Shown here: one piece after another, positions 6,238 through 58,193 of the stretch | Layout: each line of letters starts with the position of its first letter | Numbering within the stretch: position 1 is the first letter of the stretch | Assembly (NCBI GenBank): GCA_024998565.1 | Contig: JACOEM010000001.1 | Coordinates: 456,485 to 520,484, forward strand | DNA from: Nitrospira sp. | GTDB taxonomy: Bacteria > Nitrospirota > Nitrospiria > Nitrospirales > Nitrospiraceae | DNA: 64,000 nucleotides | Direction of reading: 5' to 3' | The notes under the pieces: model-generated | Database searches by the model: none | Told to the model about the DNA's origin: nothing | What the model saw: only the letters and a program-made list of their open reading frames with translations | Made by a program: the position numbers and the translations under genes

Positions 6238-6330
6238 TCAGAGCATATGGCTGATGGCCCTCTCTTTGCACCATACGCTCCTCTATCCGGATGAGAGACG
6301 AACCACACTTCACGAACGACGGACCAAGGT
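6238..6330. repeat. Repeat family B, copy 1
   Basis: Begins AGAGCATATGGCTGATGGCC, later has CCATACGCTC (inverted relative to the left end) and then GAGAGACG...CTTCACGAACGACGG. The same blocks occur in the same order at 14515-14656 with extra sequence in between, and the left block recurs beside the four-helix-bundle gene at 55769. No open frame of substance. It fills most of the gap between the DUF1295 gene and the convergent lipoprotein gene. Confidence 0.6.
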
Positions 6331-6383
6331 GACGACCTTTCTACGCATCTCGCGGCGATTCCAGGAGAACTATATAACGGGGG

Positions 6384-14514: not shown

Positions 14515-14656
14515 GAAGAGCGTATGGCTGATGGCGTATCGCCGGCTGCAAAGACTTTCACTCTCTCTGTCGGACTATACGCTATGAGCTATTCGCCATA
14601 CGCTCATTTCTCCGGACGAGAGACGGACGACGCTTCACGAACGACGACGGAAGGGG
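14515..14656. repeat. Repeat family B, copy 2
   Basis: Starts AGAGCGTATGGCTGATGGCG near 14519, has an internal inverted match TTCGCCATACGCTCAT near 14593, and ends with GAGAGACGGACGACGCTTCA then CGAACGACG. The blocks match the copy at 6238 in the same order with about 50 bp more in the middle. Together with repeat A copy 2 it makes up nearly all of the 430-bp gap between the TIGR00725 gene and the convergent LEA-2 lipoprotein; no gene is supported there. Confidence 0.6.
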
Positions 14657-51355: not shown

Positions 51356-52354
51356 TCAGCGGCCGGACAACTCTTCAATGACCGCGGCGGCCAGCAATGG
51401 CACCATGATCTCGTGGTGGCCGGTCAATGCGTATCCCTTGCCGCCCTTCTGGGTGGGTCTGCGCACGACATTGGTCATGGGGCGATAGTGCGAGAGGAAG
51501 TCCATATTGACCGTGGTGATGTTCGTCAACGGATGACCAAGGTTGCGTCCGAGCGAGACGGCTTTCAGGAAGACCTCCGGCAGGATCACGGCTGACCCCA
51601 GATTGAGATAGACCCCGCCTTCCATTTCGGAGACAACTGCGGCCAGGCGGCGAAAATCGAGCAGCGAACCCGCCCCGATCGCGGCGCCGTCTGCGGACGG
51701 ATGCATGTGAATGATGTCGGTTCCGACGGCCACGTGCACGGTGACGGGAAGGCCCAGCCGGAATCCGGTGGCCAGCAGGCTGGTGGCGCGATGTGGGAAC
51801 AGTTGTTTCCGTCGATGAATATAACTGCCGAGCGATTCGCCAAGCCCCTGACCTTCTTTCATGCCCAGGGTGATGGCTTCATTCAGCATGCGGCCGGTTT
51901 CTTCCGCCATGCCGAATCGGCCGGAGTCGATCTCCGCGTCCACTTCTTCGGACGTGTGCCCCATAAACGCGAGTTCGAAGTCATGGATGATGACCGCTCC
52001 GTTCATGGCGAGAGCGGTGACGATGCCGCGTTCCATCAGGTCCACGAGGAGCGGGCCGAGCCCGACCTTCACGACGTGGGCGCCCATGCCAACGATCACC
52101 GGCCGGCCGTTGCGATGGGCTTTGGCAATGGCCTGCGCCACTTCGCGCAACGTTTTGACCGCCAGGATATCGGGGAGTGAGTCCAGAAACCGCGCGAACG
52201 AGCGACCCTTCGTCCAGACCTTGGCAAAGTTGGAGACCTGCACCTTGCTGTGTCGGCGCTGGAGCGGATAGGTCTTCAGGCGCGACGCATCGATCGGCCG
52301 GATGATCGCGGGGGGCGTTGATGCTGCAGTGGGGCGCTTACGCCGGGTTGGCAA
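51356..52354 (-). CDS. Deoxyhypusine synthase-like protein
   Basis: About 332 residues. Rossmann-like GRPVIVGMGAHVVKVGLGPL, AFMGHTSEEVDAEIDSGRFG, VAVGTDIIHMHPSADGAAIG and GGVYLNLGSAVILPEV resemble the deoxyhypusine synthase fold, but I do not see that enzyme's active-site Lys motif. Bacteria lack eIF5A, so the substrate must differ, perhaps a polyamine such as homospermidine. The start is uncertain: TTG 52354 has GAGGAT seven bases upstream; ATG 52387 would overlap gmhA by 50 bp without a ribosome-binding site. Confidence 0.75.
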   Translation of the reverse strand: MPTRRKRPTAASTPPAIIRPIDASRLKTYPLQRRHSKVQVSNFAKVWTKGRSFARFLDSLPDILAVKTLREVAQAIAKAHRNGRPVIVGMGAHVVKVGLGPLLVDLMERGIVTALAMNGAVIIHDFELAFMGHTSEEVDAEIDSGRFGMAEETGRMLNEAITLGMKEGQGLGESLGSYIHRRKQLFPHRATSLLATGFRLGLPVTVHVAVGTDIIHMHPSADGAAIGAGSLLDFRRLAAVVSEMEGGVYLNLGSAVILPEVFLKAVSLGRNLGHPLTNITTVNMDFLSHYRPMTNVVRRPTQKGGKGYALTGHHEIMVPLLAAAVIEELSGR

Positions 52355-52916
52355 GAACGTGATCCTCAATGAGTTCGCAGAGCACATGGCCCAGCGTGAT
52401 GTGACTTTCCTGAATGCGGGCGGTCAGCGTGGAAGGCACGACGAAGGCGTAGTCCACCATGCCTGCCAGTTTGCCGCCGGTTCCGCCGGTCCAGGCGATC
52501 GTGGTGAGGCCCAGGGCTTTGGCCGCCTCGACCCCTTTCAACACGTTGGGGGAGTTGCCGCTGGTGCTGATCGCGATCGCCACATCTCCACGCTGCCCGT
52601 GTGCGCGAACTTGACGGGCGAACAGCTCCTCGAAGCCGTAGTCGTTGGCGATGCAGGTGATGGCGGCAATGTCCGTGGCGAGGGCAATGGCCGGAAACGG
52701 GGCACGTTCGCGCTTATAGCGGCCGACAAACTCGGCGGCTATGTGCGCGGCATCGGTGGAGCTGCCGCCGTTGCCGAAGAGCAAGACTTTATGTCCGGCC
52801 TGAAACGCGCCGCCGATGAGTTGCGCGACCTGCACGATTCGGTCGGCATGGTCCCGCGCGAAGCGCCGCTTGATCTCGGCGCTGTCGTCGAAGGCCTTGA
52901 TGGCAAATTCTTTCAT
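52338..52916 (-). CDS. gmhA: Phosphoheptose isomerase GmhA
   Basis: 192 residues. SIS domain with FGNGGSSTDAAHIAAEFVGR, ISTSGNSPNVL and the C-terminal ESHITLGHVLCELIE. It turns sedoheptulose 7-phosphate into D-glycero-D-manno-heptose 7-phosphate for lipopolysaccharide core. A canonical promoter ends eight bases before the ATG, so its mRNA is predicted leaderless. Its 3' end overlaps the following deoxyhypusine-synthase-like gene by 17 bp or more. Confidence 0.95.
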   Translation of the reverse strand: MKEFAIKAFDDSAEIKRRFARDHADRIVQVAQLIGGAFQAGHKVLLFGNGGSSTDAAHIAAEFVGRYKRERAPFPAIALATDIAAITCIANDYGFEELFARQVRAHGQRGDVAIAISTSGNSPNVLKGVEAAKALGLTTIAWTGGTGGKLAGMVDYAFVVPSTLTARIQESHITLGHVLCELIEDHVLANPA

Positions 52917-52924
52917 GGTCCGGA

Positions 52925-52953
52925 ATTGTAGGGAAGCCCCGAGTCACTGTCAA
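52925..52953 (-). promoter_or_regulatory. Consensus sigma70-type promoter for gmhA, leaderless
   Basis: On the minus strand TTGACA (52953-52948), a 17-bp spacer, and TACAAT (52930-52925). The -10 ends eight bases before the gmhA ATG at 52916. There is no Shine-Dalgarno sequence. This is the best promoter match in the window. Confidence 0.7.
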
Positions 52954-52970
52954 ACGACCGCAGACGTCTC

Positions 52971-53909
52971 TTACTTTCCCGGAGATGTGGGCGAAGACCG
53001 TTTCGTGATCATATTCATCGCCAGCGTCAGCATCGAGCCGACATCCGAGACGTTGGCGGGGAGCACGAGGGTGTTGCTGGCTTTGGCCAGTTCCCCGAAC
53101 TTGGTGATGTACTGCTCGGCGACGCGCAGCTGCACGGCTTCGTAGCCGCCCGGAATTTGCGTGGATTCGGCGACTTTGCGGAGTCCGTCTGCCGTGGCGC
53201 TGGCGATGGCCATAATCGCGGAGGCTGCGCCCTCGGCCTCGTTGATCTGCTGCTGTTTCTTCGCCTCGGAGGCCTTGATGACCTGCTGCTTCTCGCCTTC
53301 CGCCTGGTTGATGGCGGCGTCGCGTTCGCCCTCGGAGGTCAGAATCACCGCGCGTTTTTCCCGTTCGGCCCGCATTTGCTTTTCCATCGCGGCCAGCACG
53401 TCTTTCGGCGGCGTGATGTTCTTGATCTCGTACCGCAGCACCTTCACGCCCCAGGGTTCCGTTGCCTTGTCCAGCTCATTCACAACCTGGCTGTTGATAT
53501 TGGTGCGCTCTTCGAAGGTGCGGTCGAGTTCGATTTTGCCGATCTCGCTCCGGAGGGCGGTCTGAGCCAGCTGCGTGATCGCAAAGCGATAGTCGCTGAT
53601 GCCGTAGGAGGCTCGCTGCGGATCCAGCACCTTGGAATAGAGAATGCCGTCGACGCCGACCTGCACGTTGTCGCGCGTGATGCAGATCTGTTCGGGAATA
53701 TCGATGGCGGTTTCTTTCAGCGAGTGTTTGTACTGCACACTGTCGAGGAACGGCCACAGGATGTGGAACCCCGCGCCGAGTGTCCGTGAGTACCGGCCCA
53801 GCCGCTCCACGACGTAAGCGCTCTGTTGCGGCACGACACGCGCGGTTTTCGAGATGACGAGCAGGACGAGGCCTGCAAGGAAAATAACAACCCAAAGTCC
53901 GCCTGGCAT
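52971..53909 (-). CDS. SPFH/stomatin-like protein (QmcA type)
   Basis: 312 residues. N-terminal membrane hairpin (LWVVIFLAGLVLLVISKTAR), the SPFH domain (YVVERLGRYSRTLGAGFHIL; CITRDNVQVGVDGILYSKVL) and a long charged coiled coil (GERDAAINQAEGEKQQVIKA). It scaffolds membrane microdomains and often modulates the FtsH protease. GGAGG lies 8 bases before ATG 53909; ATG 53924 is an alternative. nfeD lies 27 bp upstream on the same strand, the classic partner. Confidence 0.93.
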   Translation of the reverse strand: MPGGLWVVIFLAGLVLLVISKTARVVPQQSAYVVERLGRYSRTLGAGFHILWPFLDSVQYKHSLKETAIDIPEQICITRDNVQVGVDGILYSKVLDPQRASYGISDYRFAITQLAQTALRSEIGKIELDRTFEERTNINSQVVNELDKATEPWGVKVLRYEIKNITPPKDVLAAMEKQMRAEREKRAVILTSEGERDAAINQAEGEKQQVIKASEAKKQQQINEAEGAASAIMAIASATADGLRKVAESTQIPGGYEAVQLRVAEQYITKFGELAKASNTLVLPANVSDVGSMLTLAMNMITKRSSPTSPGK

Positions 53910-53936
53910 TCCGCTATCCTCCATGATGGTGCGACC

Positions 53937-54371
53937 TCATTCTGGTTTGATCCACAGGGTGATGCCGTCGACACGCTCGACGCGGCTGCGTTGTCCTTTG
54001 AGCAGCGGCTTGTCGCCGGCGTTGTGCGCATTCCAGGTGCTGCCCCGGCATTCCGCTTTGCCCGTGGCGCCGGGAGGAAGGTCGTCCAGGACGATGGCGG
54101 TTTCGCCGCCCATGGTATCGACCGATGAGCCGTTGCCCCGGTCGGCCGTCATGAGGCGGCGGAGCGGAGGACGAAGGATGACGAGGGAGGCAACGGAGAA
54201 GACCGAAAAGAGGAGCCAGGACACCCATTCACTCTGAATCACGCCCAGGCCGACCAGCGCGCCGACGACCAGCGCCCCGATGCCGAAGAACAACATATAG
54301 AACCCGCCGGGCGTGACGACTTCGCTGCCGAGCAGAAACAGTCCCAGGAAGGCCCAGAGCCACCAGGTCAT
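53937..54371 (-). CDS. NfeD family protein
   Basis: 144 residues. Two or three membrane helices (LWAFLGLFLLGSEVVTPGGF; IGALVVGALVGLGVI; WLLFSVFSVASLVIL) and a C-terminal OB fold with GETAIVLDDLPPGATGKAEC. It is the short NfeD1b-type partner of SPFH proteins. GGAGG precedes the ATG. Together with the stomatin-like gene it forms a two-gene operon. Confidence 0.92.
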   Translation of the reverse strand: MTWWLWAFLGLFLLGSEVVTPGGFYMLFFGIGALVVGALVGLGVIQSEWVSWLLFSVFSVASLVILRPPLRRLMTADRGNGSSVDTMGGETAIVLDDLPPGATGKAECRGSTWNAHNAGDKPLLKGQRSRVERVDGITLWIKPE

Positions 54372-54474
54372 CGCACCTCCTCAGACGTCACGGGCGCGGG
54401 TTGTCTCGTGATTCACGCGGAAGTCTATGCGTCTTTCCCGGGACCGTCAAGGATTGTGAGGAAACCGTCGTTCG

Positions 54475-54503
54475 TTGAAGCAGCCGGAGTGCAGTGGTAT
54501 AGT
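54475..54503 (+). promoter_or_regulatory. Promoter for the CARF gene, leaderless
   Basis: TTGAAG at 54475-54480, a 17-bp spacer, and TATAGT at 54498-54503 preceded by TGG (extended -10). The -10 ends eight bases before ATG 54512. No Shine-Dalgarno sequence is present. Confidence 0.55.
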
Positions 54504-54511
54504 CCGCGGTC

Positions 54512-55768
54512 ATGCCTGCGGATACTCCTGTCAAAGCGCTCATTCTGGCCTTTACCGATGCGCCGTCGCTCGCCGCCTATGTGATCAACCGGCTGCAGCC
54601 GGAATTGCTCTGCTTTTTCGTGCCGGAATCGGCGAAGACGCAGGTCGAAGAGGCGGTGCAACCGCTGGTGCAGCAGATGCCGAAACGTTGGGATTGGGTG
54701 GTGACGCCTGATCCGGCCGACGTCATCGCCTGTCATCAGGCCCTGTCACGATCTATCCACGACCTCTTTCGAAACTGGGCTGTGCAGGTGGGCGAAGTGG
54801 TCGTCGATTTGACCGGCGCCACCCCTGCCATGGCCGCGGCGCTGGCGACGGTGAGCCAACCCTGGACGTCACGGGTGATCAGTCTGGTCGATGCGGAGGG
54901 CCGCGAAGAGGGGGAGGCGATCGCGATCGGCGGGTTGACCAAGTATTGGTTGCAGGGCAATCCCTGGGATGAGTCGGCGGTCGTGGTGCGCCGTGAAGCC
55001 AGCGACGCCTTTAATCATGGTTCATTCAGAGCCGCCGCCACGCTGTTTCATACCCTGGAAGCTCGCGTGAGCGGGGGACAAAAGCCCCTCTATCGTGCCT
55101 TGGGCGAATTGGCGTTGGGGTACGGGTTGTGGGAGCAGTTTCACTACCGCCAGGCGTGGGACAAACTGAAGACCTCGTTGAAGGCGCTCGACATGGCCTC
55201 GCTCTGGGGAGGGCCGCCCGGGTTAAAGGCGCTCCTGCCGTTCATCAAGGCCAATAATGGATTCTTGGAAAAGCTGGTACTGGATCCCGCCGACGTGAAG
55301 GAAGGGGTAGTGCTCGATCTGCTCGCGCATGCCCATCGTCGCGCCCACGTGGACCATGACTATGAACGGGCCATGGTGGCGCTCGTGCGCGCGATGGAAG
55401 CCTGCGCCCAGCGGCAACTGTTCAAACAGTACAAGATCAAGTCCTGGGATGTGCAGCCGGAGCAATTGCCCGAATCGATGCGGGACACCTGCCGCACCTG
55501 TTACCTCGATGATGTGGACGGGAAGTACAAGCTGCCGTTGCAGAGTCAGTTCCGGGTATTGGCCGGTCTTGGCGATCAGATGGGGCAGGCCTTTCTTCGC
55601 GATTGGCCCAAGATGAAGCCGCTGCTCGACGCCGCCAACCATGCGGTGTTGGGCCACGGGTTTGAGGCCATCAAATCCGAGCGGGTGCAGCAACTGTCCG
55701 ATGTGGTCATGAAACTCACGGGCGTGAACGAGTCCTCGCTGCCGAAGTTCCCGAATCTGAACCTCTAA
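54512..55768 (+). CDS. Orphan CARF protein, TIGR02710/Cas02710-like
   Basis: 418 residues. The N-terminal Rossmann-like half ends in VVVDLTGATPAMAAALA (residues about 97-113), the position of the CARF motif that normally reads DxTGGTKxM and contacts cyclic oligoadenylate; here GG-K is changed to GA-P. The C-terminal half is helical and ends near residues 374-383 in AANHAVLGHG, where related proteins have an RN-x4-H HEPN RNase motif; the Arg is absent. No CRISPR array or cas gene is nearby. It may be an inactive or repurposed effector. Its stop abuts repeat B sequence. Confidence 0.78.
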   Translation: MPADTPVKALILAFTDAPSLAAYVINRLQPELLCFFVPESAKTQVEEAVQPLVQQMPKRWDWVVTPDPADVIACHQALSRSIHDLFRNWAVQVGEVVVDLTGATPAMAAALATVSQPWTSRVISLVDAEGREEGEAIAIGGLTKYWLQGNPWDESAVVVRREASDAFNHGSFRAAATLFHTLEARVSGGQKPLYRALGELALGYGLWEQFHYRQAWDKLKTSLKALDMASLWGGPPGLKALLPFIKANNGFLEKLVLDPADVKEGVVLDLLAHAHRRAHVDHDYERAMVALVRAMEACAQRQLFKQYKIKSWDVQPEQLPESMRDTCRTCYLDDVDGKYKLPLQSQFRVLAGLGDQMGQAFLRDWPKMKPLLDAANHAVLGHGFEAIKSERVQQLSDVVMKLTGVNESSLPKFPNLNL

Positions 55769-55800
55769 AGAGCATATGGCGTATAGCCTATGGTTAAGGG
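55769..55800. repeat. Repeat family B end, left of the four-helix-bundle gene
   Basis: AGAGCATATGGCGTATAGCC begins right after the CARF stop codon and matches the left block of the copies at 6238 and 14519. A counterpart in inverted orientation (GCCATTCGCTCC, about 56309-56320) lies on the other side of the four-helix-bundle gene. Confidence 0.5.
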
Positions 55801-55810
55801 GGGATATTGG

Positions 55811-55846
55811 GACCGTTCAGGGAACGGATGACTACGCTGAACGGTC
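55811..55846. repeat. Inverted repeat upstream of the four-helix-bundle gene
   Basis: GACCGTTCAG at 55811-55820 and CTGAACGGTC at 55837-55846 are perfect 10-bp inverted repeats with a 16-base loop. They lie 33 bp before the GTG start. It could be an operator, an mRNA hairpin, or part of a mobile unit. Confidence 0.55.
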
Positions 55847-55878
55847 GCTGACCGAAGTTGAAAGGTTGAGCGCAAGAA

Positions 55879-56232
55879 GTGTCATTCAGGTTTGAAACGC
55901 TCAATATATGGAAGAAGGCAAAAAATTACGCTTCGAAAGTATATTTGGCGACGGCGAAATTCCCTCGTCACGAGGACTATGGATTGAGATCTCAGATGAA
56001 CAGAGCCGTGAATAGTATTTGCCTCAATATTGCCGAAGGTTCGGCCAAAAGCTCTAAAAAGGCTTTTGACTATCATCTGGAAATTGCCCTAGGTTCGACG
56101 GTCGAAGTCGTGGCTGCGTCCTGTCTCGCTGCGGAGCAGGCATATATTGCCGACCTTGAACACAAGGCCTTGTACGATGAAGGTCAGAAGCTGGCAAAGA
56201 GCATCAATGCATTCCGGAACGCACTGGAGTGA
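55879..56232 (+). CDS. Four-helix-bundle protein, TIGR02436/S23 family
   Basis: 117 residues from GTG 55879. ETLNIWKKAKNYASKVYLAT, YGLRSQMNRAVNSICLNIAE (with NIAEG), KKAFDYHLEIALGSTVEVVA and LAKSINAFRNALE match the 23S intervening-sequence (S23) four-helix family, related to the Avd accessory of diversity-generating retroelements. Members form pentameric barrels that bind nucleic acid. Its codons are more A/T-rich than neighbours, and repeat B segments flank it, so it was probably acquired as a unit between the CARF and ybgC genes. Confidence 0.88.
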   Translation: MSFRFETLNIWKKAKNYASKVYLATAKFPRHEDYGLRSQMNRAVNSICLNIAEGSAKSSKKAFDYHLEIALGSTVEVVAASCLAAEQAYIADLEHKALYDEGQKLAKSINAFRNALE

Positions 56233-56320
56233 GGAGAGCGTTTGTGCGATAGGGCATTTGCCATTCGCACCGGTTATTCCGGCCACATACCATAAGCTCT
56301 TGTCTACGCCATTCGCTCCC
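56233..56320. repeat. Repeat family B-like segment right of the four-helix-bundle gene
   Basis: This 88-bp stretch contains AGAGCGTTTGTGCGATAGGG, GCCATTCGCACC, CATACCATAAGCTCT and GCCATTCGCTCC, variants of the repeat B end in both orientations. It separates the four-helix-bundle gene from ybgC and lacks a ribosome-binding site for ybgC. Confidence 0.4.
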
Positions 56321-56722
56321 ATGGAAATTAGAATCTACTACGAGGACACCGACTGCGGAGGGGTGGTGTACTATGCCAACTACCTCAAGTATTTCGAGCG
56401 GGCGAGGACGCAGTATCTCGAAGAGCGGGGCCTGTCGGTTGCCGAGTTACGGGACGGCGGGACCCAGTTTATGGTCGTGCACGCCGAGCTCGACTATCGA
56501 TCGCCGGGGCGTTATGGTGAGACATTGGTGATCGAGACGACACTGGCGTCGGTCAGCCAGGCCTCGTTCACCTTTGCGCATGTCCTGCGGGAACGGAGGA
56601 GCGGGCGAGTGGTGGTCGAAGGCTCGGCCAAGCTGGTGACGGTGGATGACAACTTGAAAGTAAAGCGACTCGACAAACCCACCTTGGCTGCGTTACAAGG
56701 ACCTCCAGAGACGAGGAGCTAA
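56321..56722 (+). CDS. ybgC: Acyl-CoA thioesterase, YbgC/4HBT family
   Basis: 133 residues. IYYEDTDCGGVVYYANYLKY carries the catalytic Asp and the full YbgC signature; FERARTQYLEERGL follows. YbgC hydrolyses short acyl-CoA or acyl-ACP and is usually linked to the Tol-Pal system, which is absent here. The Met at 56321 matches family starts. Its stop codon overlaps the ATG of the next small gene. Confidence 0.92.
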   Translation: MEIRIYYEDTDCGGVVYYANYLKYFERARTQYLEERGLSVAELRDGGTQFMVVHAELDYRSPGRYGETLVIETTLASVSQASFTFAHVLRERRSGRVVVEGSAKLVTVDDNLKVKRLDKPTLAALQGPPETRS

Positions 56723-56835
56723 TGGACAAACTCGGCACATGGCTGGCAGTGACTGGTGTGGCGATCGGTTTCGTCGTCCTCGCCTGGTTGCTCTTTTCCG
56801 ACAATCCTTCCGACAAGAACAAGAAGAAACCGTAA
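56722..56835 (+). CDS. 37-residue single-helix membrane protein
   Basis: Begins in the ybgC stop (TAATG), with GAGGAG about seven bases upstream. The peptide has one membrane helix (WLAVTGVAIGFVVLAWLLF) and a charged tail SDNPSDKNKKKP. Overlap with ybgC, the ribosome-binding site and the neat topology support translation. Function unknown; such miniproteins often modulate a larger membrane complex. Confidence 0.6.
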   Translation: MDKLGTWLAVTGVAIGFVVLAWLLFSDNPSDKNKKKP

Positions 56836-56954
56836 GCCCTCCGCGCCTCTCCTCCCGCAACGGCATGTGTCCGCCGTCGGGGCAGCGCTATTCTCAACGA
56901 GTGTGAGTTCTCACCGCCGTTCGGACGTTGCGTCCATCAACCGGGGCCATTGAC

Positions 56955-58193
56955 TCAAGGCTGGGCTGCGACTTGGGGCGGGTGGAGCAGACTGTCGAGG
57001 GCAGTATTCACCAGCGTCGCCACGATGCGGTGGCCGCGTTCATCCGGATGGGCGAGGTCGAGGTAGAGACTCGCGTCCTGGGCGAGGACCTGACCGGCTT
57101 CGACCACGATCGCGCCATGCCGGCGGGCGACCGCTCTCACGATGTCGTTATACTCGCTGTCGAGGCGGAGCGGTTTCCCGCCGTGCGTCAGTTTCCAGGC
57201 CGGAAGGGTGAGGCTCGCCGTCATCGTCGCTTCTTCTATCGCCCCGCGTTGCTCCAGGACTACGGCGAGGTATTTCCTGGCGAGATCGGAGAACCAGTTG
57301 TCCATGTTCACGGCAATCCGCAGTTCCGCTTCGGCCTGTGCCTGCCGTCCGGCATTCAGGTGGGCGATGCCTGCCCGCAGATGTTCGGAGTGAGCCGGAT
57401 TATCCTGAAATGCAACGAAGACCAGCGGCACGTGCCGTTCCTGGCAGAATCGTGCGATGCGCTCAAGATTCTGCCGATACTGCTCTGGCGAGACCCGGGT
57501 CGGCGCTGTTCTTGCGTCAACGGTCGTGCTGCCGTCGCCGCTTCGTTTCATGAGGTGTAATCTGATCAGCAGGTGCTGGAGGCCTCGGTACAGATAGATC
57601 TTCTCTCTGAAGTCCATCCGATGCAGCAGTGCCTCCCGCTCGAATTTTTCGTGGCTGTCGGTGGCCGCTTCCGAGGGCACCACTCGACGATCGTTGAAAC
57701 TGAACGAGGCGATGACGACATCCGGGCGGACGCGGTCGAAATATGTGAGCAGTGCCGTATAGCCCTGGAAAGAACTGTACCCGCTTACGCCCAGGTTGAT
57801 CACGTCGGCATCCGGGCGCAGATCGTCCAGCACTTCCGGGTACGCATTACGGGTCGGCACACCCCAGCCGAAGGTATTGGAGTCGCCGATCGCAAGGATA
57901 CGCGTACGGGTCTTCTCACCGATCTGTGCCGTATCGACGGCGAAGAAGCCCTGCGCATCGAATTCACGCAGGTATCGCGCCGGATCATGTCGGTGCAGTT
58001 CTCCGGCAACGAGCCCCTTGAAGTGCGGGCGACGTTCCCAACCCAACTCCGGCGTGTATCGATACCAGTCCGGCTGCTCCGGGGTCAGATCGGCTTGTGC
58101 CGTGAGCAGGGCTCGCGATACCCCTTCAAGGGCCAGTAACCCGGCCAGTGTGAGCGTCACGCCGATCAGGGCTGCGGTCAGACGAGACTTCAT
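56955..58193 (-). CDS. SGNH/GDSL-type hydrolase, exported
   Basis: 412 residues. N-terminal membrane anchor or signal (AALIGVTLTLAGLLALEGVS), block I ILAIGDSNTFGWGVP, block III-type NLGVSGYSSFQGY, SFSFNDRR, and the Asp-x-x-His dyad in LDLAHPDERGH. An insertion of about 100 residues lies before the C-terminal dyad, with a TPR-like part (AHLNAGRQAQAEAELRIAVN). It probably removes acyl or acetyl groups from a glycan or lipid. GGAG lies seven bases upstream of ATG 58193. Confidence 0.85.
   Translation of the reverse strand: MKSRLTAALIGVTLTLAGLLALEGVSRALLTAQADLTPEQPDWYRYTPELGWERRPHFKGLVAGELHRHDPARYLREFDAQGFFAVDTAQIGEKTRTRILAIGDSNTFGWGVPTRNAYPEVLDDLRPDADVINLGVSGYSSFQGYTALLTYFDRVRPDVVIASFSFNDRRVVPSEAATDSHEKFEREALLHRMDFREKIYLYRGLQHLLIRLHLMKRSGDGSTTVDARTAPTRVSPEQYRQNLERIARFCQERHVPLVFVAFQDNPAHSEHLRAGIAHLNAGRQAQAEAELRIAVNMDNWFSDLARKYLAVVLEQRGAIEEATMTASLTLPAWKLTHGGKPLRLDSEYNDIVRAVARRHGAIVVEAGQVLAQDASLYLDLAHPDERGHRIVATLVNTALDSLLHPPQVAAQP

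Follow-up and report, generated by a model that had tools for sequence, protein, structure and literature searches.

The stretch at positions 55769-56320 of the window (the whole piece of Nitrospira sp. DNA that was analyzed, 64,000 nucleotides long) is best explained, with a probability of about 0.8, as a copy of a widespread mobile element, probably non-autonomous, that ends on both sides in arrays of 7-nt units (hereinafter heptads). We are highly confident that it is a mobile unit with heptad arms. Such an element measures about 0.4-0.55 kb and has a single four-helix-bundle (4HB; S23/IVP) gene, enclosed by two tandem heptad arrays in inverted orientation; its target is the short spacer from a stop codon to the next start codon, entered mostly along host transcription, and inverted pairs of its heptads that enclose no gene lie scattered genome-wide, resembling miniature derivatives. 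The copy in the window is 552 bp long, contains a single 4HB gene and occupies the whole gap from a CARF gene's stop codon to the ATG of ybgC (Table 1). The earlier note had placed the unit exactly between these two codons and had likened its ends to those of a repeat family, repeat B; both statements stand, with GAGCATATGGCGTATAGCCTATGG matching on the left and GCCATTCGCTC matching in inverted orientation on the right.

Table 1. Positions of the 4HB unit, its parts and neighbors, and the gene-less repeat-B hairpins in the window (rc, reverse complement)
Feature	Position	Strand	Basis or remark
CARF protein, upstream neighbor	54512..55768	+	TIGR02710 (Csm6-type HEPN)
CARF stop codon	55766-55768		TAA
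Whole 4HB mobile unit	55769..56320	+	junction comparison with relatives; identity of element versus flanks
Left arm	55770..55793	+	~3 degenerate heptads: GAGCATA, TGGCGTA, TAGCCTA, then TGG
4HB (S23/IVP) gene	55879..56232	+	117 aa, GTG start; PF05635, TIGR02436
Right arm, inner block	56281..56299	-	rc GAGCTTATGGTATGTGGCC
Right arm, outer block	56306..56318	-	rc GAGCGAATGGCGT
ybgC start codon	56321		ATG
YbgC/FadM acyl-CoA thioesterase, downstream neighbor	56321..56722	+
Gene-less repeat-B hairpin	6240..6281	.	GAGCATATGGCTGATGGC ... CCATACGCTC; true inverted pair
Gene-less repeat-B hairpin	14517..14605	.	true inverted pair

Judging by sequence profiles and a structure model, the 117-aa product is a member of the S23/23S rRNA IVP family with a four-helix fold. 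It matches PF05635 (23S_rRNA_IVP; E 4.5e-29, 101.2 bits against a cut-off of 33.8) and TIGR02436 (94.8 bits against a cut-off of 24), and the best PDB match of its monomer model (pLDDT 97.3) is XCC0516 (2gsc, TM 0.93), a homopentamer (PMC4990558). Other fold matches of the model are BT_0352 (2rld, TM ~0.8), Avd (4dwl, TM 0.80) and a DGR complex (8ub7, TM 0.78); the match to the NCBIfam Avd profile is weak (22 bits, under the 80-bit cut-off). Purifying selection on the 4HB protein is strong (dN/dS 0.05-0.19, with 0.05-0.11 given for the gene in the window). A search of window positions 52000-58000 against Rfam matched no family.

The CARF-ybgC junction was compared across genomes that each represent a species and include drafts and incomplete assemblies. 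The earlier note had suggested looking for loci where these neighbors are joined without the insert, and such empty sites were found: stop and start are separated by 6 bp in G019 and G020 (TAG CCGACG ATG) and by 5 bp in the outgroup genus. The same unit as in the window is present in G000, G015, G044, G012 and G021, in the last of which the gene is interrupted by a stop codon, and its 3' part is present in a G014 contig. Three species (G024, G016, G009) have at this junction a 69-76% identical 4HB with different heptads, and four others (G023, G006, G002, G008) a 4HB of 36-42% identity with GTGAAGC/GTATCTC arms; remnants are left in G005 and G003, and the repeat alone in G007 and G001. Between G000 and G044, the unit is 92.6% identical in nucleotides, as against 81.6% and 79.7% for the flanking genes, and at third codon positions the 4HB gene is 94% identical, as against 60% and 56% for the flanking genes. 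The unit has therefore moved horizontally; the 4HB units of the pairs G015-G044, G021-G012 and G023-G006 are likewise more alike than their flanks. At a second site, with a GTGAAAC-armed 4HB, third positions are 100% identical between G000 and G024, versus 64-68% in the neighbors. In G000-G044 the 60-bp bins adjoining the unit show raised flank identity (95% and 88%), but in G021-G012 the bin to the left shows only 82%; accordingly, local recombination may have aided some transfers, and interspecies replacement by homologous recombination at the CARF-ybgC junction may account for some of them.

The earlier note had conjectured that the 4HB gene is a mobile unit, and besides this horizontal movement its conjecture is borne out by the clean insertion of a homologous unit in near-identical plasmids. 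On conjugative Nostocales plasmids, the site is full in Trichormus variabilis ATCC 29413 plasmid C and Scytonema NIES-4073 plasmid1 (GTAA, a 428-bp insert, then TTAAC; duplication ≤4 bp, GTAA) and empty on the same replicon type in Tolypothrix PCC 7601, Aulosira laxa, Nostoc linckia and N. carneum (GTAA-TTAACAAATAAAT-ATG, or ...AATT), where the flanks are 97-99% identical to those of the full plasmids. The arms of the Trichormus and Scytonema units differ in length by 14 nt, that is, by two heptads. The same plasmid spot holds a gene-less hairpin built of the same heptads in Brasilonema pBOCT2 and a truncated unit in Nostoc C052 pE, and Aulosira plasmid2 and Nostoc C052 pD have members of the same unit family (77-81%) at sites unrelated to this one. 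A second case is a pair of Calothrix plasmids, with a unit where relatives hold a 3-bp spacer. Among phages, a unit is 96-98% identical in three contigs whose flanks are 74-88% identical, and a fourth relative is empty; at two further phage sites, a search with empty-allele patterns found no empty allele. Target-site duplication amounts to ≤4 bp (GTAA) at one site and to none at two others. An insertion sequence or MITE moved by a DDE transposase was considered and rejected, as there is no consistent target duplication and the arms share heptads without being mirror copies. Two viral contigs (L268, L273) have related flanking genes and the same junction with different 4HB units and heptads; in another two (L280, L281) the unit and right flank are alike and the left flanks differ, possibly through recombination between inverted arms or as an assembly artefact.

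The association of 4HB genes with heptads was scored in five samples of non-redundant genes: 63 clusters from the window's phylum, 72 representing other species across many phyla (picked by a conserved motif among the matches listed, up to 80 loci), 16 from viral contigs, 31 from Xanthomonadales (a sample without X. campestris, in which the best match to XCC0516 is 68%) and 24 from the phylum Cyanobacteriota. With the best 7-nt (lag-7) self-match of 21 in the 250-bp flanks as the score, lag 7 was the highest in all five samples (mean 14.1-17.3 of 21); most other lags gave about 10-11, and lag 8 came second (10-12.7), some units being octads. Arrays reaching 14 of 21 on one side were found for 71, 78, 81, 94 and 63% of the genes in the phylum, other-species, viral, Xanthomonadales and Cyanobacteriota samples, respectively, and at 0 of 20 ParE control loci from the window's phylum; control DNA 700 bp off reached 16 of 21 in 5-7% of cases (phylum and genome samples). 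Every unit family has a heptad peculiar to it, identical in both inverted arms, with a median of 4.4 units per arm: left and right arms of the same gene match at 34-49, versus 17-19 when swapped, with 78-90% exceeding the 95th percentile, and the heptad common to both arms of a gene shows 1.4 versus 3.2 circular mismatches. The polarity of the arms is also consistent: among 235 informative coding-strand 5' arms, 216 have G>C and 19 have C>G (p ~2e-43, with relatedness between samples left in). Strict mirror-image arms were rejected, the order of units scoring 18.6 versus 18.4 for permuted units (n=34); the arms are therefore two tandem arrays of one motif and not copied terminal repeats. The XCC0516-like 4HB genes of Xanthomonadales (63-65% identical; L384, L394, L395) have GGGATTC/GGGAATC arms. 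Gene-bearing units within one genome are mostly single and divergent, and recent duplicates are rare, which argues that full units have rarely jumped within a genome in recent times. At least roughly 10% of 4HB units carry octad (8-nt) arrays in place of heptads, and these are commonest in the Cyanobacteriota sample.

Repeat B is not one unique repeat; it is built of degenerate heptads in an array ((A/G)GCNNAT). The heptads of the unit in the window are among the weaker copies, their best lag-7 self-matches being 13 and 11 of 21; window-wide lag-7 scoring recovered no array at 16 of 21. When up to 2 mismatches are allowed, the genome has 80 matches to the pattern GAGCRTATGGCNNATRGC, versus 2 to a reversed control pattern; these sites often form inverted pairs with about 70-90 bp between. 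The earlier note had set against mobility the picture of a gene always present at this locus in related genomes, with no empty sites and with flanks of its own; on every point the opposite was found, the flanks recurring at about 80 loci in the genome. The gene-less copies of repeat B that it placed at 6238 and 14519 are real inverted pairs. Its suggestion that the gene-less copies here are deletion derivatives of a gene-bearing unit was not supported: in the 12 gene-less B hairpins inspected, the interiors had neither similarity to the 4HB unit nor a remnant of a 4HB gene, whereas at one plasmid site the spot taken by full units is occupied in other plasmids by a truncated unit or by a hairpin without the gene. 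The median number of repeat-B copies per genome is 82 with the 4HB-B gene and 27 without it (Mann-Whitney p 0.002, kinship ignored); G019, with 95 copies and no 4HB-B gene, is an exception to this trend. Other repeat-B sites show turnover between species, being occupied by hairpin B, hairpin A, another repeat or nothing. Both gene-less B copies are directly adjoined (window 6295-6340 and 14612-14650) by hairpins of another family, repeat A (CTTCACGA/CGTATCTCG), which has its match in the arms of the different 4HB unit that G023, G006, G002 and G008 carry at CARF-ybgC. An inverted element of about 200 bp (CCCGCATTATTCATGA ... TCATGAATAATGCGGG) lies inside or beside repeat-B hairpins in G015 (L314, L315).

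4HB units share their strand with the upstream neighbor in 58 of 66 cases and with the downstream neighbor in 55 of 68; given this insertion mostly along host transcription, the element probably lives on read-through transcripts. The unit in the window contains no transposase, integrase or reverse transcriptase, and none of these, nor a Y1 transposase, was found among the 25 most common neighbor families (of 107 Pfam families in 74 proteins). Nucleotide-sugar epimerases and other polysaccharide genes are frequent neighbors. We consider it rather likely that the 4HB protein acts on its own heptads: as a pentamer, it would bind the heptad arrays on the unit's RNA or single-stranded DNA, and the bound arrays would be brought to a mobilizing enzyme supplied in trans. 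Our first guess for this enzyme would be a reverse transcriptase, because Avd, a close structural relative, works with one. More generally, we see an even chance that 4HB proteins serve as specificity factors for mobile elements that form a class of their own, defined by heptad-array ends, and that the heptameric loci, numbering tens to hundreds per genome in many bacteria, are the ends and gene-less derivatives of such elements.

The route of movement can be weighed against known systems. The 23S rRNA intervening sequences (IVS) of Coxiella and Leptospira resemble the unit in having an S23/IVP protein, a single ORF, inverted stem-forming ends and a patchy, horizontally acquired distribution, and their ORF was proposed to be that of a mobile element by Ralph and McClelland 1993 (cited in PMC4990558). 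As in an IVS, the ends of the unit in the window are complementary, and in the predicted RNA fold they pair together in a basal stem (z -4.7). Unlike an IVS, the unit lies between the protein-coding genes CARF and ybgC and not inside 23S rRNA, and its ends, in the units analyzed, are tandem heptad arrays that vary by family. The unit could be an RNA parasite of the IVS kind, folded with its ends together, excised by RNase III and guarded or re-inserted as RNA by the protein with a reverse transcriptase. The shared protein family, the predicted end-to-end closure, the strong co-orientation with transcription, the Avd-DGR structures among the fold matches and the 28-bp terminal stem of the Coxiella IVS, which is cut by RNase III (PMC4990558), are all consistent with this route through RNA and a reverse transcriptase. 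We consider it possible but less likely than not: the unmirrored unit order of the arms indicates that selection does not maintain strict pairing of a stem, and no reverse transcriptase partner was found in the units or in the 25 most common neighbor families. Avd of the diversity-generating retroelements shares the fold, but neither a template repeat nor a variable repeat was found near the 4HB genes, and no reverse transcriptase was found among the 25 most common Pfam families of their neighbors. Alternatively, the hairpins might move as single-stranded DNA via a Y1 (HUH) transposase in trans, as in REPIN/RAYT systems, with the 4HB as a passenger or cognate recognition factor. The ecology is similar, with a few distinctive single-copy master genes, each with its own cognate flanking repeat family, and many gene-less intergenic inverted doublets (PMC3116915), and so are the insertions with little or no target duplication. 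We nevertheless regard this as unlikely, since no Y1 transposase was found in the units or in the 25 most common neighbor families, the protein is a four-helix bundle and not an HUH enzyme, and the ends are tandem heptads and not a single imperfect palindrome each. A further difference from REPIN/RAYT systems is that the 4HB master unit itself moves horizontally.

Two further explanations were weighed. In one, vertical inheritance with repeated loss and ordinary interspecies homologous recombination would produce the pattern, the unit itself not being mobile; in this genus 4HB-B is seen only at CARF-ybgC, and some other families also keep to a single locus. It is made highly improbable by the fall in identity outside the unit toward the level of the diverged genes (the 82% beside the unit in G021-G012, against the 95% and 88% in G000-G044), by the 36-42% identical 4HB units with other heptads that fill the same 6-bp spacer in sister species and by the closely related plasmid units at unrelated sites. 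In the other, heptad arrays would arise first, through replication slippage or as regulatory hairpins, and 4HB genes would merely land or persist beside them. Arrays do exist without 4HB genes, and array length shifts by whole heptads, as between Trichormus and Scytonema; however, the arms around a gene are inverted, have the same heptad and are of fixed polarity, the empty alleles lack arms and gene alike, and the ParE genes of the same phylum have no arrays, all of which leaves this course with very little probability.

With a mobile element bearing heptad ends as the preferred reading, two old puzzles join: the function of the S23/IVP proteins, whose structures have been solved since 2006 and for which we know of no function, and the abundance of heptameric repeats, which are over-represented in bacterial genomes and for which we know of no accepted cause. 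The rule found in many phyla, of a 4HB gene with its own inverted heptads, mobile in the spacers between genes, gives the protein a testable job, may account for heptameric repeats in bacterial genomes and supplies many natural protein-motif pairs for specificity studies. Rehm et al. described heptameric intergenic repeats, GGGAATC in Xanthomonas and GGGGATT in Nostoc, with 70 inverted pairs of GGGAATC heptads in X. campestris; the Xanthomonas heptads lie on the sense strand just past stop codons and on the antisense strand just ahead of start codons, for which no cause was given, and the heptads were reported to have generally no association with mobile elements (PMC4692102). TAACTGA repeats are similarly known in Beggiatoaceae (PMC4679880). 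These repeats resemble the arms described here in their 7-nt tandem units, often in inverted pairs, in the G-rich strand near the stop codon and in their position between aligned ORFs; the published descriptions (PMC4692102, PMC4679880) differ in linking no gene family to them. A literature search, with preprints and most subscription journals outside it, found no paper linking 4HB genes with heptameric repeats, and we regard the novelty of this link as provisional. As a separate observation, 4HB units adjoin regularly spaced CRISPR-like arrays at L334 and L335 (G058) and at L103/L337 (G056); the G058 pair beside such arrays, left out of the definition of the ends, consists of two unit copies that are 95% identical.
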